Positions 16,019 to 57,652 of a stretch of DNA of 64,000 nt are shown piece after piece. A model generated the notes under the pieces. The model saw nothing but the letters and a program-made list of their open reading frames with translations. It did not search any database and was not told where the DNA came from. The DNA comes from Bifidobacterium gallicum DSM 20093 = LMG 11596 (GTDB lineage Bacteria; Actinomycetota; Actinomycetes; Actinomycetales; Bifidobacteriaceae): assembly GCF_000741205.1 (NCBI RefSeq), contig NZ_JGYW01000004.1, positions 62,001-126,000 of the forward strand. The letters run 5' to 3'. Positions within the stretch are counted from its first letter, which is position 1; each line of letters starts with the position of its first letter. A program made the translations under genes and the position numbers.

Positions 16019-16204
16019 TTTGTACCACGGTGGAACGTTCGCGATACGGATTCGGGTCGAAAATGCACGTGTTTGTACCACGGTGGTACAGACGCGGTCA
16101 AAATGGGCGGGAATCCGTACTGCGTTTGTACCGCGGTGGTACGGAGACGGTACGGATTGGGCTGAAAAGAGCGAAGATGTGCCGCGTTTGTACCACGGTG
16201 GAAC
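16019..16204 (-). repeat. Array B: four palindromic repeats, same unit as array C
   Basis: Four copies of the palindrome GTACCAC(C/G)GTGGTAC flanked by TTT/AAA start at 16022, 16075, 16128 and 16190 (spacing 53, 53 and 62). The first and last have one arm changed to GGAAC, and the third has GTACCGC. On the minus strand each palindrome is followed by AAACGCG or AAACACG, then a GCATTTT-like stretch, then AATCCGTA, the same order as in array C on the plus strand at 56 kb. It lies between the convergent surface protein gene and tRNA-fMet. Confidence 0.85.
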
Positions 16205-47613: not shown

Positions 47614-49449
47614 TCAGCGCGTATAAATACGTCGATTGATCTCATCAGCGAACACGCGGTTCACGGCGGGACGGACCATTTTCATGCTCGGCGTCAGGCA
47701 ACCGTTGTCTTGCGAGAAGTTCTGTGTGATCACAATGAACTTGCGCACGGATTCGGCGCGGCTGACTTCGGCATTCGCCTTGTCCACATAGTGCTGGATC
47801 TCTTGCGCCACCTCAGGCAGCGCAGCGGCTTGCTCGATGCTCAAATCGGCAGGCTGGCCAATCGTGGGCAGCCACTGTTCCAAACCTTCCTTGTCCAGCG
47901 TCATCAATGCGCCAATGAACGGCTTGTTGTCACCAACCACCACGGCATGCTCCACAATCGGGCATTTGGCAATCGTCTGCTCCATTGGCAACGGGGAGAC
48001 GTTCTTACCACCGGCCGTGATGATGATGTCTTTGGCGCGGCCCGTGATCGACAGGTTGCCTTCATCGTCGAGCGAAGCCAAATCGCCCGTGCGCAGCCAA
48101 CCGTCGTCGGTGAATGTTTCCTCGGTCTTGTCGGGCAGATTGTGGTAGGCGCGGGACACGGTTTCACCCTTGATTTCAAGTTCACCCGTGTCGCTGATAC
48201 GCACGCTCAACCCCGGACCGGGACGCCCGACCGAACCGATGCGGTTATCGTTGGGGCGCGTGAACGCGAACGGCGCGGCCGTTTCCGACATGCCGTAGCC
48301 TTGGATCATCGTGATGCCAATGCCGTTGAAGAAATGGCACAACGCCGGATCCATCGGCGCGCCACCGGCGGCCAGATACTTGATGTTCGGGCCAAACGCT
48401 GAACGGATTGTGCGATAGACAAGATGCTCATACAGCGCATGCTTGCGGCGCTGCTGCTTCGTTGGGTCATGAGCCGGTTCCGGCACGTCAGTACCACCGT
48501 TGACCGTATGCGACCATTCACCCGCGAATTCGGTGGCGGCTTGGAAAATGCGCCCCTTGAAACCGGTACCAGCCTTGCGTGAAGCCGCATTGTACACTTT
48601 CTCGAACACGCGTGGCACACCTAGGATGAACGTTGGTTTAAACGTTTGCATATCAGCCGGAAGCGTCTTGATATTGGGCAAATAACCCACCACGCCATCC
48701 TCGGAACTGATCACAAAATACTGGACGAATTGCGCAAAGCAATGGGCCAACGGCAGGAACAGCAGCAGACGCGCATGGTTTTCAATCGTTTCCGGTACGC
48801 TCATCGCCGCCGAACGCGTGCTCGCCATTACATTGCGATGCGTCAGCTCCACACCCTTGGGCGCGCCCGTGGAACCCGACGTGTACACGATCGTCGCCAA
48901 ATCATCAGCCGTAACCGAACTGATACGCTCGTCCAGCTCTTCATCGGACACCATGAGACCTAAGCCTTCAAGCGTTTCCAACGCATGAGCGTCAATCATC
49001 AGGATGCGCTCAAGATTCGCGCATGCGTCAAACACCGAATCCAAACGGTCGAAGCGCTCGCGATTGTCGGCAATGGCCAGGCGAGACGCCGAATCGTTCA
49101 AAATATGTTTGGCCTGCGCCGCAGAATCAGTGTCGTAAATCGGTACGAGCACAGCGCCCACAGCGGCCAATGCGAAATCAAGCAAACCCCATTCGATGCG
49201 TGTTGACGAGAAAATCGTGACAGCATCACCCTTCTTGATGCCGAACGCGATCAGGCCTTTGGCGATCGCGCGCACACGGTCGTTGAACTCGCCCGTCGTA
49301 ATTGTGCTCCACGTGCCATCTGCCTCTTTGTTTTCGGCGATGACCTCGTCCGGGCCCGACTTGGCCAAGCGGTCGGTCAGGAACGTGTATTTGTTTTCGT
49401 GGTCGTCAACCAGTTTGCTCGGACCAGGTGCGGTGTATTCGGTCAGCAT
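47614..49449 (-). CDS. Long-chain acyl-CoA synthetase (AMP-forming)
   Basis: A 611-residue ANL-superfamily enzyme that activates fatty acids as acyl-AMP and then acyl-CoA at the membrane face. The P-loop is TIVYTSGSTGAPKGVELTH (about residue 190), then QGYGMSETAA, the adenylate aspartate region DDGWLRTGDLASLDDEGN, and the C-terminal catalytic lysine region NFSQDNGCLTPSMKMVRP. The order and the YLPNIKTLPADMQTFKPT segment match FadD15-like synthetases of actinobacteria. I start at the ATG at 49449; the frame extends upstream without similarity. The ribosome site is weak (AGAGAGA). Confidence 0.93.
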   Translation of the reverse strand: MLTEYTAPGPSKLVDDHENKYTFLTDRLAKSGPDEVIAENKEADGTWSTITTGEFNDRVRAIAKGLIAFGIKKGDAVTIFSSTRIEWGLLDFALAAVGAVLVPIYDTDSAAQAKHILNDSASRLAIADNRERFDRLDSVFDACANLERILMIDAHALETLEGLGLMVSDEELDERISSVTADDLATIVYTSGSTGAPKGVELTHRNVMASTRSAAMSVPETIENHARLLLFLPLAHCFAQFVQYFVISSEDGVVGYLPNIKTLPADMQTFKPTFILGVPRVFEKVYNAASRKAGTGFKGRIFQAATEFAGEWSHTVNGGTDVPEPAHDPTKQQRRKHALYEHLVYRTIRSAFGPNIKYLAAGGAPMDPALCHFFNGIGITMIQGYGMSETAAPFAFTRPNDNRIGSVGRPGPGLSVRISDTGELEIKGETVSRAYHNLPDKTEETFTDDGWLRTGDLASLDDEGNLSITGRAKDIIITAGGKNVSPLPMEQTIAKCPIVEHAVVVGDNKPFIGALMTLDKEGLEQWLPTIGQPADLSIEQAAALPEVAQEIQHYVDKANAEVSRAESVRKFIVITQNFSQDNGCLTPSMKMVRPAVNRVFADEINRRIYTR

Positions 49450-55021: not shown

Positions 55022-55741
55022 ATGGTTGTTGATGTGAGCTACATAAGCAAGGAAACCTCGGACCATCTTGAGGATGTGATGCTTGGAGCGCCATCGGTCA
55101 CAGGCATTGTGGCCGTGCAAGGCGCGTTTGCGGAACATGCGGCCATGCTGGACCGGCTCGGCGTCCCCTGGAAACTGCTGCGCAACGGTGAGGATTTTGA
55201 CGATTCGATTGCGCGCGTAATCCTGCCGGGCGGCGAAAGCACGACGCAAGGCAAGCTCCTGCACCAAACGGGACTGTATGAGCCGATTGCGGCCCACATT
55301 GCAGCAGGGCGCCCCGTGTTCGGCACCTGCGCTGGCATGATTCTGCTCGCCCGCGAACTTGAGGACGACCCGACTGTGCATTTTGGTGCGATGGATGTGA
55401 CCGTGCGCCGCAATGCGTATGGTCGCCAGTTGGGGTCATTCAGCGCCGATGCCGATATCGACTTTTCTGTGGATGTGGCGGATGGTGATTTGGGTGAGGA
55501 AGTGACCGGAGACGCAGCGGAGGCGGATTATGTGGCTTGTGAGGTCAATCCGCGCATTGACGACTATCCCGTCGTGTTCATCCGCGGCCCGCTGGTGTCA
55601 AACGTTGGGGAAGAGGCCAACGTGGCGGCAATGGTCAACGGCCAGGTGGTGGCCGTGCGCCAAGGCAATCTGATCGCCACGGCCTTCCACCCCGAACTGA
55701 CCGATGACACACGAATCCACGAATTCTTCCTGAGCCTGTGA
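55022..55741 (+). CDS. pdxT: Pyridoxal 5'-phosphate synthase, glutaminase subunit
   Basis: A 239-residue class I glutamine amidotransferase that releases ammonia for PdxS. The start of the domain is TGIVAVQGAFAEHAAMLDRLG after an N-terminal extension of about 25 residues. PGGESTTQGKLL is the family's substrate loop. The catalytic triad is Cys in FGTCAGMILLA (about residue 102) with His and Glu in AFHPELT near the end. An insert of acidic residues (DGDLGEEVTGDAAEADY, about 155-175) is not in the shortest family members. AAGGGA lies upstream of ATG 55022. Together with pdxS it gives the DXP-independent PLP route. Confidence 0.95.
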   Translation: MVVDVSYISKETSDHLEDVMLGAPSVTGIVAVQGAFAEHAAMLDRLGVPWKLLRNGEDFDDSIARVILPGGESTTQGKLLHQTGLYEPIAAHIAAGRPVFGTCAGMILLARELEDDPTVHFGAMDVTVRRNAYGRQLGSFSADADIDFSVDVADGDLGEEVTGDAAEADYVACEVNPRIDDYPVVFIRGPLVSNVGEEANVAAMVNGQVVAVRQGNLIATAFHPELTDDTRIHEFFLSL

Positions 55742-55769
55742 GGATGTGGGGTGGGTGTGCTCCCGGTAG

Positions 55770-55866
55770 CTGCCTACTGCACGCCCGGCAGGTGCCCATT
55801 GTGCGGTAGGCAGCCGCTCATCGCAAGCCCGGCAGCCGCCAACACCTATTGTGCACGCTGCCGGGC
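55770..55866 (+). terminator. Two consecutive hairpins after pdxT
   Basis: Hairpin 1 pairs CTGCCTACTGCAC with GTGCGGTAGGCAG (55770-55813). Hairpin 2 pairs GCCCGGCAG with CTGCCGGGC (55827-55866) and is followed by GTACCTTTTG. Together they probably end the pdxST transcript. Confidence 0.65.
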
Positions 55867-56018
55867 GTACCTTTTGTGCTCCTATGAGAGGCTTTGTGCG
55901 ACTTTGAGTGACTTTGCGGGGCCAACGCGTGCCGCTGCGTTCCGCCTCACCTAGCTAGGGATGTTTTTGCGTACCCAGTGGTCACAACGGAGATCCATCT
56001 TGTGCCCGGATGTGTCGT

Positions 56019-56302
56019 TTTTGTACCACGGCGGTACAAACGCATGCATTTTCGTATCAACTCGTATCGCTTTTGTACCACGGTGGTACGTTTGCGCTAC
56101 AACTTTTGCCCGGATGTATCGCGAATGTACCACACCGGTACATTCACGCTACGGATTTCGCCTCGTTTTGCACGCGTTCGTACCACCGTGGTACAAACGC
56201 GTGCATTTTTGGCCTAAATCCGTATCGTCTTTGTACCACCGTGGTACAACTGCGATACAGATTGACCTAACCCGTACCTTTTTGTACCACCGTGGTACAA
56301 AA
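56019..56302 (+). repeat. Array C: six palindromic repeats at 51-53 bp spacing
   Basis: The palindrome GTACCAC(C/G)GTGGTAC, usually flanked by TTT and AAA, occurs with cores starting at 56023, 56075, 56127, 56180, 56233 and 56284 (steps 52, 52, 53, 53 and 51). Copy 1 has GGCGGTAC and copy 3 ACCGGTAC. Between copies the sequence is partly conserved: AAACGCGTGCATTTT, then a CCTAAATCCGTATCG-like part. The same unit in reverse orientation makes array B at 16 kb. The spacing equals about five turns of B-DNA, so all palindromes face the same side of the helix. The stretches between copies are variable but related, so it is not a CRISPR array. Confidence 0.88.
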
Positions 56303-56614
56303 ACGGTACAGATTAACGCCAACCCACATTGTTCTCAGCGTTGTGGGTGCGGTTTGTGATGAGGAGTGGCCTCATAGCGGATGATATGGTGCCGGCTGCA
56401 CACTGATGTTTGGGCGCGGAGGCGAAGAGAGGGATGAGATTGAGGTGCAGTGCAGTTGGATGGCAGGGTGGGATTGGCGGAAGTGGGAGTAACGGGGTGG
56501 GATTGACGGGGATGGATTGGTGGGAATCGGCTAGGGGTGGTTGGCTCAGGGAGGCTAGTAGGATGGCTGGTGGATTAGTCGCTGTTATTTCTGTTAGTTG
56601 TGGAGCTTGTATCA

Positions 56615-57652
56615 ATGGATGTTGTATCTACCAGTGCCGTGTCTGCCGGCAATGATGCTGCAGGCAATGATGCCGCAAGCAATGTCGCTTCCGAATATGT
56701 CGCTGCCGGACTCACTGATGAGGGGACTGTAAAGGCGCTGCCTGTTATACCTACCATCACGCTCAACGACGGCAATACCATTCCTCAGATTGGGCTTGGG
56801 GTGTTGCGTATTGATGATGAAGGCGTGGTGCCTGTGGTCGAATCGGCGCTGGACCTTGGTTACCGCCATATCGACGGTGCGGCCGGATACAACAACGAAG
56901 CCGGAGTGGGCCGTGCGCTTGCGCAAGCAGGTTGGAACGGCGACGCCCAATCCCCGGCAATCCAGCAGCTGGCGCAAGAAACTGGTGCCGACGCCCAGAC
57001 CTTGGCGCAGCAACGCCGCCAGAATCTGTGGGTGACCACCAAGCTCAAGGATTCCGAGCAAGGTTACGATTCCACATTGGCCGCTTTCGACCGCCAACTG
57101 GCGCTACTGCAGCTTGAGTATGTGGACATGTATATGATTCACTGGCCGACCCCATTCAACTGGCGTTCGGGTGAAACTTGGCGCGCTATGCAAGAGTTGC
57201 GTGACCAGGGCCGCGTGCGCACCTTGGGTGTGTGCAACTTCATGCCGTCCGACCTCGAGCGTTTGCATGACGAAACCGGTGAGTGGCCGGCCGTCAACCA
57301 GATTGAACTGCATCCCACCTGGCAGCAGCGCGAGGTAGTGCGCTTCTGCAAAGACCACAACATCGCCGTAGAAGCCTACTCACCAATGGCCCGCGGCGCC
57401 GATCTTCAAGCAGGTGACGGTGTGATCGAGCGCATCGCTGCCGCTCACAACGTCAGTCCGGCTCAAGTAATCCTGCGCTGGCATATTGAAAACGGCACAA
57501 TCATCATCCCCAAATCCGTGCATGCCTCGCGCCAGGCTGAAAACCTCGACCTATTCAATTTCAGCCTGACCCCCGAGGAATACAGCGCGATTGACGAGCT
57601 CGACGGTCCCACGCGTGCCGGCCACGATCCCGCCACGTTCAGCTACGCGTAG
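56615..57652 (+). CDS. Aldo/keto reductase
   Basis: A 345-residue NADPH-dependent TIM-barrel oxidoreductase. The barrel starts at about residue 45 (IPTITLNDGNTIPQIGLGV), after a Ser/Ala/Asn/Gly-rich extension not found in standard family members. The catalytic tetrad is seen as Asp and Tyr in GYRHIDGAAGYNNEAGVG, Lys in VTTKLKDSEQGYDS and His in YMIHWPTPF. The end FNFSLTPEEYSAIDELD is family-typical. It resembles 2,5-diketo-gluconate reductase-like AKRs; the natural substrate is unknown. Start could be GTG 56600; I prefer ATG 56615 but no ribosome site is strong. Confidence 0.9.
   Translation: MDVVSTSAVSAGNDAAGNDAASNVASEYVAAGLTDEGTVKALPVIPTITLNDGNTIPQIGLGVLRIDDEGVVPVVESALDLGYRHIDGAAGYNNEAGVGRALAQAGWNGDAQSPAIQQLAQETGADAQTLAQQRRQNLWVTTKLKDSEQGYDSTLAAFDRQLALLQLEYVDMYMIHWPTPFNWRSGETWRAMQELRDQGRVRTLGVCNFMPSDLERLHDETGEWPAVNQIELHPTWQQREVVRFCKDHNIAVEAYSPMARGADLQAGDGVIERIAAAHNVSPAQVILRWHIENGTIIIPKSVHASRQAENLDLFNFSLTPEEYSAIDELDGPTRAGHDPATFSYA

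Follow-up and report, generated by a model that had tools for sequence, protein, structure and literature searches.

A dispersed, mirror-symmetric palindrome array in Bifidobacterium gallicum and its possible role as a protein-docking platform

Dispersed palindromic repeats in bacteria are commonly taken as hairpins or as selfish DNA. Rows of protein sites set about whole helical turns apart are familiar from phased operators, iterons and centromeres of the parS type, which occupy one or a few loci and often lie beside the cognate gene. BOX elements of the pneumococcus and MIRUs of mycobacteria are modular and dispersed, with tandem units of about 45-100 bp, and we know of no mirror-symmetric layout or near-invariant 15-bp dyad in either. 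Here we describe array C, a row of palindromes in Bifidobacterium gallicum which, from its whole-turn spacing, its mirror symmetry and the absence of compensatory changes, looks like a set of protein sites on double-stranded DNA. The literature on Bifidobacterium repeats, searched also with literal sequences and with most subscription papers outside its coverage, returned no description of the array.

Layout of array C and its copies in the genome

In the window, the whole stretch of 64,000 nucleotides that was analysed, array C consists of six units spanning 56023-56298 (Table 1), and the steps of 52, 52, 53, 53 and 51 bp given in the preliminary description were recovered exactly. That account had counted six copies of GTACCAC(C/G)GTGGTAC in one orientation. 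Six units are indeed present, but the exact core GTACCACSGTGGTAC occurs in only four, with one mismatch in the unit at 56023 and three in that at 56127, and orientation carries little meaning in a core that is a near-perfect palindrome. The gap after pdxT is free of genes by our reading of the open frames as well: pdxT (SNO family) ends at 55741, and the gene to the right, an aldo/keto reductase, starts near 56600-56639. At up to three mismatches the window holds 11 palindrome matches, against a shuffle mean of 1.01 (maximum 3 in 100 shuffles), and these comprise the six of array C, four at 16022-16204 and one stray at 48491. The single terminator-like site (55855-55868) lies outside array C, and such sites are no more numerous than in shuffles. 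An Rfam search over the window and four other loci returned four tRNAs and no other match. A rough survey of 29 pdxT loci from other species showed no such array after pdxT, a weak negative given that the reading frame was treated approximately and several loci contained a partial gene.

Table 1. Positions of array features in the window, with the distribution of units over the palindrome loci of the genome
Feature	Position	Description
Array with another palindrome	1427-1860	eight units, at 1441, 1494, 1547, 1598, 1651, 1704, 1757 and 1810
Second array copy	16022-16204	four units, at 16022, 16075, 16128 and 16190; steps 53, 53, 62
Extra sixth unit	56023-56037	core GTACCACGGCGGTAC, 1 mismatch; 157 bp left of centre, outside the five-site layout
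Five-site element, approximate extent	56064-56311	reaches the outer boxes of the last units; in most pairs similarity to other copies fades 114-150 bp from the centre
Unit 1 of five-site element	56075-56089	at -105; core exact
Unit 2	56127-56141	at -53; core GTACCACACCGGTAC, 3 mismatches
Inward-facing box CTACGGATTT	56149-56158	left of centre unit; mirror partner at 56216-56224
Unit 3, centre of mirror symmetry	56180-56194	core exact; outer boxes type B (TGCACG / CGTGCA)
Inward-facing box AAATCCGTA	56216-56224	mirror partner of 56149-56158
Unit 4	56233-56247	at +53; core exact
Unit 5	56284-56298	at +104; core exact
Arrays of four units		L018, L031, one of two in L029
Arrays of five units		L017, L019, L022, L023, L024, L028, L030, the other in L029
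Array of six units		L032
Pairs		L025, L026, L027
Single units		L016, L021

Across the genome (2,004,594 bases in 12 contigs), the palindrome occurs 47 times exactly and 63 times with at most one mismatch, whereas the reversed pattern used as a control gave no exact match and one with a single mismatch. All 63 sites fall in 17 stretches around palindromes, counting a one-mismatch site in L020. We set aside that site, which lies in a called gene, together with five stray three-mismatch sites and matches less than 30 bp from an earlier match. This left 66 units (47 exact, 15 with one mismatch, three with two and one with three), grouped into 12 arrays of four to six, three pairs and two singles. 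Every array lies between genes as called by a simple codon-score script, and the flanking pairs are convergent at three, divergent at two and tandem at seven by our reading of the gene list. Thus, the 12 arrays are dispersed intergenic palindromes in groups, as is characteristic of REP and BIME elements.

The 49 adjacent spacings are confined to two narrow classes, 51 (once), 52 (13 times) and 53 bp (24 times) or 62 (eight times) and 63 bp (three times), with none from 54 to 61. All correspond to about five or six helical turns, placing the sites on one helical face, although the arrays share ancestry and their spacings are not independent. The suggestion that the spacing is near whole turns therefore holds throughout the genome, and palindromes away from array C are regularly rather than randomly spaced. 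The neighbours of the centre unit stand at exactly -53 and +53 in all 12 arrays. Further out, the left-hand site stands at -105 in six arrays, -115 in two and -116 in one and is missing in three, and the right-hand site at +105 in six, +104 in one, +115 in four and +116 in one. The two sides of the layout thus mirror each other about the centre unit.

Each unit is itself a dyad, with two inner half-sites (GTACCAC, S, GTGGTAC) and, 11 bp beyond them, a weaker outer box on each side (GTAnCG, mirrored on the other arm); these boxes take a TGC form on one or both sides of the centre unit in nine of the 12 arrays. The inward-facing boxes TACGGATTT and AAATCCGTA that flank the centre are nearly invariant, and mirror pairs 30-33 and 35-37 bp from the array centre are complementary and identical in every array. 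A duplicated unit of about 52 bp, as first proposed, is too narrow a description, since the dyad measures about 37-45 bp and includes a further box beyond the core; likewise, the usual element has five units over roughly 250-270 bp, the sixth of array C being an addition to it. Similarity between array copies fades 114-150 bp from the centre, near the outer boxes of the last units, as judged from the 19 of 66 array pairs above the chosen score. It is shorter on the left (74-77 bp) where the left end is missing, and in the pair L017/L023 a weak similarity reaches about +198.

Two arrays, inverted and nearly identical, enclose a 375-aa reading frame (L029:5492-6619, minus strand) that has a weak AbiEi match in PADLOC (E 1.6e-4) and no Pfam family at 0.001. 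In a related species (G052), the end of an AbiEii-like gene (L139:629-1363, plus strand), which scores 22.5 bits and so just reaches the Pfam cut-off, lies about 50 bp ahead of an array. We regard the AbiEi/AbiEii-like neighbours at these two loci as a weak lead.

Conservation of cores, linkers and arms

When the three central units were compared across the 12 arrays, minority letters made up 12 of 504 core positions (2.4%, centre letter excluded), 77 of 432 in the outer boxes and 187 of 744 (25.1%) in the rest. The palindrome is accordingly better kept than the sequence between copies, as the preliminary description had it for array C, and the linkers resemble one another both within and between arrays. 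The contrast recurs between L017 and L023, whose 42 core positions are all identical whereas 13 of the 62 others differ (Fisher p 0.0014). It is missing among the youngest copies (L029a, L029b and L030), with 1-2 differences in 42 core and 0-1 in 62 other positions. Cores therefore do not decay at the rate of the linkers between copies, except in these three, in which the linkers too are almost unchanged. In a comparison by eye of the close relatives G063 and G064, half-sites are kept in one matching unit (L067/L074) where other positions differ, and some half-site changes are seen in the neighbour of that unit and at L065/L096 and L068/L073. Taken at the level of sequence, the conservation of core against linker supports the initial preference for probable protein binding over plain repeat decay.

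Selection for pairing within a strand should leave a change on one arm matched by a change on the other, and no overall excess of such compensation was found. Complementary pairs number 607 of 1254 in the unit flanks, where 615.5 are expected (p 0.67), and 334 of 588 among whole-array mirror pairs, where 350.8 are expected (p 0.97); type A units alone (n = 46) have fewer than expected (441 against 484.3), and core positions show compensation no better than when re-dealt. The flank pairs that do exceed re-dealing are ±16 (p 0.03), ±17 and ±18 (both below 0.001) and ±32 (0.02), the co-variation at ±16 to ±18 arising because there are two unit types, with GTA and with TGC boxes. When 53 units from five other species were pooled, pairs 11, 12 and 13 co-varied (p 0.004, below 0.0005 and 0.047). 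Within G063 and G064, in contrast, pair 11 is marginal (p 0.045) and pairs 12 and 13 do not co-vary, and within G071 none of the three does. The pooled signal thus lies mostly between species and reflects symmetric flank differences, as expected of dimer sites. Both strands of array C fold far better than shuffles (z -14.1 and -13.9), which follows from the palindromes themselves, since any palindrome row folds well. The lack of overall arm compensation speaks against selection for a hairpin and in favour of a dimeric protein bound to duplex DNA, and on this ground, despite the strong folding, we rejected a hairpin or RNA element as the selected feature.

Related arrays in Bifidobacterium

The exact palindrome is nearly private to this genome, occurring in two of 112 genus genomes (47 copies here and one in G063). 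Allowing a middle of N0-8, it is found in 40 of 189 family genomes, with 47 matches here, 14 in G063, five in G064, four in G072, two in G089 and one in each of the others. Arrays of GTACC...GGTAC dyads with 51-52 bp steps are nonetheless present in seven other species (G063, G064, G071, G072, G042, G052 and G054), those of G052, G054 and G072 having been recognised by eye, and their dyad is mostly 20 bp wide (GTACCAC-N6-GTGGTAC) as compared with 15 bp here. Exact double units at a 51-52 bp step were found in four of 112 genomes (G042 one, G063 eight, G064 two, G071 four). Relative to its reversed control, the 20-mer is in clear excess in G063 (26/6), G071 (19/8), G072 (10/2) and G042 (7/2), in slight excess in G064 (10/6) and in none in G052 (7/8) and G054 (5/9), and all such GTACC patterns are blind to arrays with other half-sites. 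In several relatives the array has one wide central unit, with GTACC and GGTAC about 74-125 bp apart and internal dyads; in four G063 arrays of this kind the flanking units are 165-166 bp apart. Array centres with long inner dyads lie at L078:1880-1940 and L066:2060-2120, e.g. TTGACGCGCTGTCAAATCGTTG / CAACGTTTTGACAGCACGTCAA and TTGGAATTCCAA.

The loci occupied mostly differ between species. Genes flanking 28 loci of other species match those beside the arrays of B. gallicum in one distant family only (33-38% identity). Among themselves the 28 share flanks at two G063/G064 loci, in one G063/G071 pair (45%) and in one G063/G072 pair (35%). When five of nine G063 loci were compared with the close relative G064, array units were present at three (L065, L067 and L068) and lacking at two (L071 and L070), with no exact excision point at the presence/absence loci. 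A stretch of about 95 bp in G063 (L071:2547-2641) matches many G064 places and is another dispersed repeat.

Several apparent relatives were set aside. Single 16-mers GTACCACAAGTGGTAC occur in many species, and the one example examined (L077) looks coding. Viral contigs gave no match to the double 15-mer and seven to the looser 20-mer pattern, of which the one examined (L086) is A+T-rich and looks unrelated; a plasmid search with the array gave no match. A contig scan of the whole collection, from which the genome itself was excluded, produced two matches, in Patulibacter (L033) and a Bacteroidales MAG (L034), which are tandem palindromes of other sequence and were taken by eye as unrelated. 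At about 5300-5460 in L034 there is a run of GTACC...GGTAC palindromes with steps of about 26 bp, half the Bifidobacterium period.

The period itself extends to other palindromes, such that the single array type of the preliminary description proved too narrow: similar arrays with different palindromes occur across the genus. In 864 kb, made up of the window and 40 stretches, with the window and three G071 stretches picked for their arrays, equal palindromes with 6-base arms formed six pairs 51 bp apart and three at 53, and all other spacings from 28 to 103 had none or one. In an unselected scan (77 stretches of 20 kb from 16 species, 1.54 Mb), 6-base arms gave 37 pairs at 28-140 bp, with nine at 51, one at 53, one at 50 and a next highest bin of three, and 5-base arms gave 474, with 17 at 51, 14 at 102, 11 at 112 and 10 at 89. 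All nine 6-base-arm pairs at 51 belong to one family, TGTCCGATTCT..AGAATCGGACA, and when this family was searched for, all 23 of the spacings between neighbours no more than 140 bp apart were 50-52. The unselected sample thus holds two families, this one at 51 and CTCCAGTSACTGGAG at 53, to which the selected sample adds GTACC, CCTGACC-N5-GGTCAGG (in the window from 1441) and CCGGCA...TGCCGG. The window array at 1427-1860 (steps 53, 53, 51, 53, 53, 53, 53) has the core CCTGACC-N5-GGTCAGG or CCGTACC and outer boxes AAACTGC, a layout like that of array C with a different palindrome. A common cause may underlie these 51-53 bp families.

The TGTCCGATTCT..AGAATCGGACA family occurs at 51 bp in L209, L215, L160 and L191 (G028, G060, G019 and G040), and its units lie both within open frames (peptide SDSGESD) and outside them. 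An orthologous gene carries two units of the TGTCCGATTC family in G019, G020 and G060 but a single unit in G001, and the two forms differ by exactly 51 bp. Three further observations concern other repeats: about seven 53-bp units round CTCCAGT-S-ACTGGAG, a 15-bp palindrome with a C/G centre, in G040 (L194:2100-2480); CCGGCA...TGCCGG dyads at 51 bp in G071 (L183:8773-8880), which are near a tRNA gene and within a few hundred bp of an array of the GTACC type; and a short tandem repeat with unit ACAACCGTCACGGTAAACCAGGTC around 15330 of L177 (G006).

A putative docking platform weighed against other explanations

On balance, we regard it as probable, though far from assured, that the array serves as a docking platform, dispersed in the genome and mirror-symmetric, on which a putative sequence-specific DNA-binding protein assembles. 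Each unit would bind one or two dimers of the candidate protein, all of them in a row on one face of the DNA, and the dimer row with its two mirror-related arms could build one cooperative complex round the centre unit that may bridge, wrap or bend the DNA. The arrays are intergenic, have no fixed gene orientation and mostly occupy different loci in each species, positions more in keeping with a role in chromosome structure or in self-spreading than with control of a single adjacent gene. As the recognition palindrome varies by species, site and protein presumably changed together. Several points count against such a platform. The dyads of relatives, mostly 20 bp, differ from the 15-bp dyad by 5 bp, or half a turn, an awkward fit to a single dimer geometry. 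In addition, either strand folds strongly, as hairpin models would want, the young copies L029a, L029b and L030 have no core contrast, and some flank co-variation is present.

A selfish repeat of the REP/BIME or REPIN kind, in which an enzyme acts on hairpins and the period is simply the size of the copied unit, is possible but on the unlikely side. It would account for arrays that are dispersed, intergenic, lineage-specific and gained or lost between close relatives, for their strong single-strand folding and for the exact one-unit difference in the TGTCCGATTC family; a single Y1 transposase match was obtained in each of two TGTCCGATTC species, G019 and G060, and evenly spaced REP tandem arrays are known in Pseudomonas from excerpts of PMC3116915. 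Compensatory changes are, however, not in excess here, unlike in the REPINs of those excerpts, and Y1 transposase (PF01797) is matched in none of the seven other GTACC-array genomes, the three matches of the B. gallicum genome being of unassigned class (RAYT or IS200). Inspection of 12 pairs of element ends by eye also showed no target-site duplication. This counts, too, against another reading, in which a site-specific recombinase or transposase would move the array as a miniature element, the units serving as its arm-type sites and the centre as a core-type site. Such an element, which we consider improbable, is suggested by the mirror symmetry with its distinct centre, the wide central units of several relatives, with internal dyads such as TTGGAATTCCAA, the fading of copy similarity near the outermost boxes and the two copies inverted around one gene. 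The presence/absence pattern between close relatives (no array units in G064 at two of five G063 loci) is likewise that of a MITE. Yet none of 34 proteins with a Pfam look-up, most of them array neighbours, is a recombinase. The integrase cassettes and trio recombinases of Bifidobacterium (MIC/RIT), for which excerpts of PMC2430713 and PMC3414803 were the comparison source, were a lead that found no confirmation, and the cassette inverted repeat as given in the excerpted PMC2430713 differs by eye.

Near-perfect dyads at phased spacing also resemble operators, and the arrays might be clusters that regulate a neighbouring gene. We find this hard to credit, as gene orientation around the arrays is mixed, the neighbours looked up are of unrelated kinds, the genes flanking the 28 loci of other species are not found again next to the arrays here, save for the one distant family, and 55700-56700 holds no promoter-like site. 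A functionless tandem repeat in ordinary decay, of minisatellite or MIRU type, might be read from the period of 51 that Tandem Repeats Finder reports at 56180-56314; it is very unlikely given that decay is not uniform, minority letters being about ten-fold fewer in the core than in the rest, and that 12 dispersed loci keep one centre-symmetric spacing. An orphan CRISPR comes closest to being untenable. A palindromic 24-mer of equal period in B. dentium, TGTCCGATTCTCCAGAATCGGACA, is tabulated as an 'Undetermined' CRISPR with 8 repeats and cas1 N in an excerpt of PMC4521832, whereas the linkers here resemble one another and have boxes in common, the repeat measures 15 bp and the copies are dispersed. 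No cas gene was present among those nearest array neighbours that were looked up. Judging from that excerpt, recognition of TGTCCGATTCTCCAGAATCGGACA as a 24-mer of the TGTCCGATTCT..AGAATCGGACA family would likely correct the published CRISPR call.

Beyond the docking platform at these loci, we offer as a speculation, possible and still doubtful, that nucleoprotein platforms with helical phasing, and often with mirror symmetry, form a class found throughout the bifidobacteria and new to science. In it the 51-53 bp period would be fixed and the palindrome swapped between lineages and between families in one genome, much as in a fast-evolving centromere- or nucleoid-like system. The palindrome changes by species and the period hardly at all, which makes the genus a ready-made comparative series in which to study the purpose of the period.

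Among described systems, array C shares with phased operator, iteron and parS-type arrays the setting of its sites, but it recurs at 12 unrelated intergenic loci, and no cognate gene was found among the array neighbours looked up. The B. dentium TGTCCGATTCTCCAGAATCGGACA repeat, as tabulated in the excerpt of PMC4521832, is similar in genus, in being palindromic and in its period of about 51 bp (50-52 in the family), and differs in the palindrome itself. REP, BIME and REPIN sequences of Gammaproteobacteria and others, as portrayed in excerpts of PMC3116915 and PMC3733652, are likewise short, intergenic, dispersed and lineage-specific palindromes, sometimes evenly spaced. The arrays described here are set apart from them by the lack of a compensatory excess, by the failure to match a Y1 transposase in any of the seven other genomes with GTACC arrays, by five- and six-turn spacing and by mirror symmetry about a centre unit.
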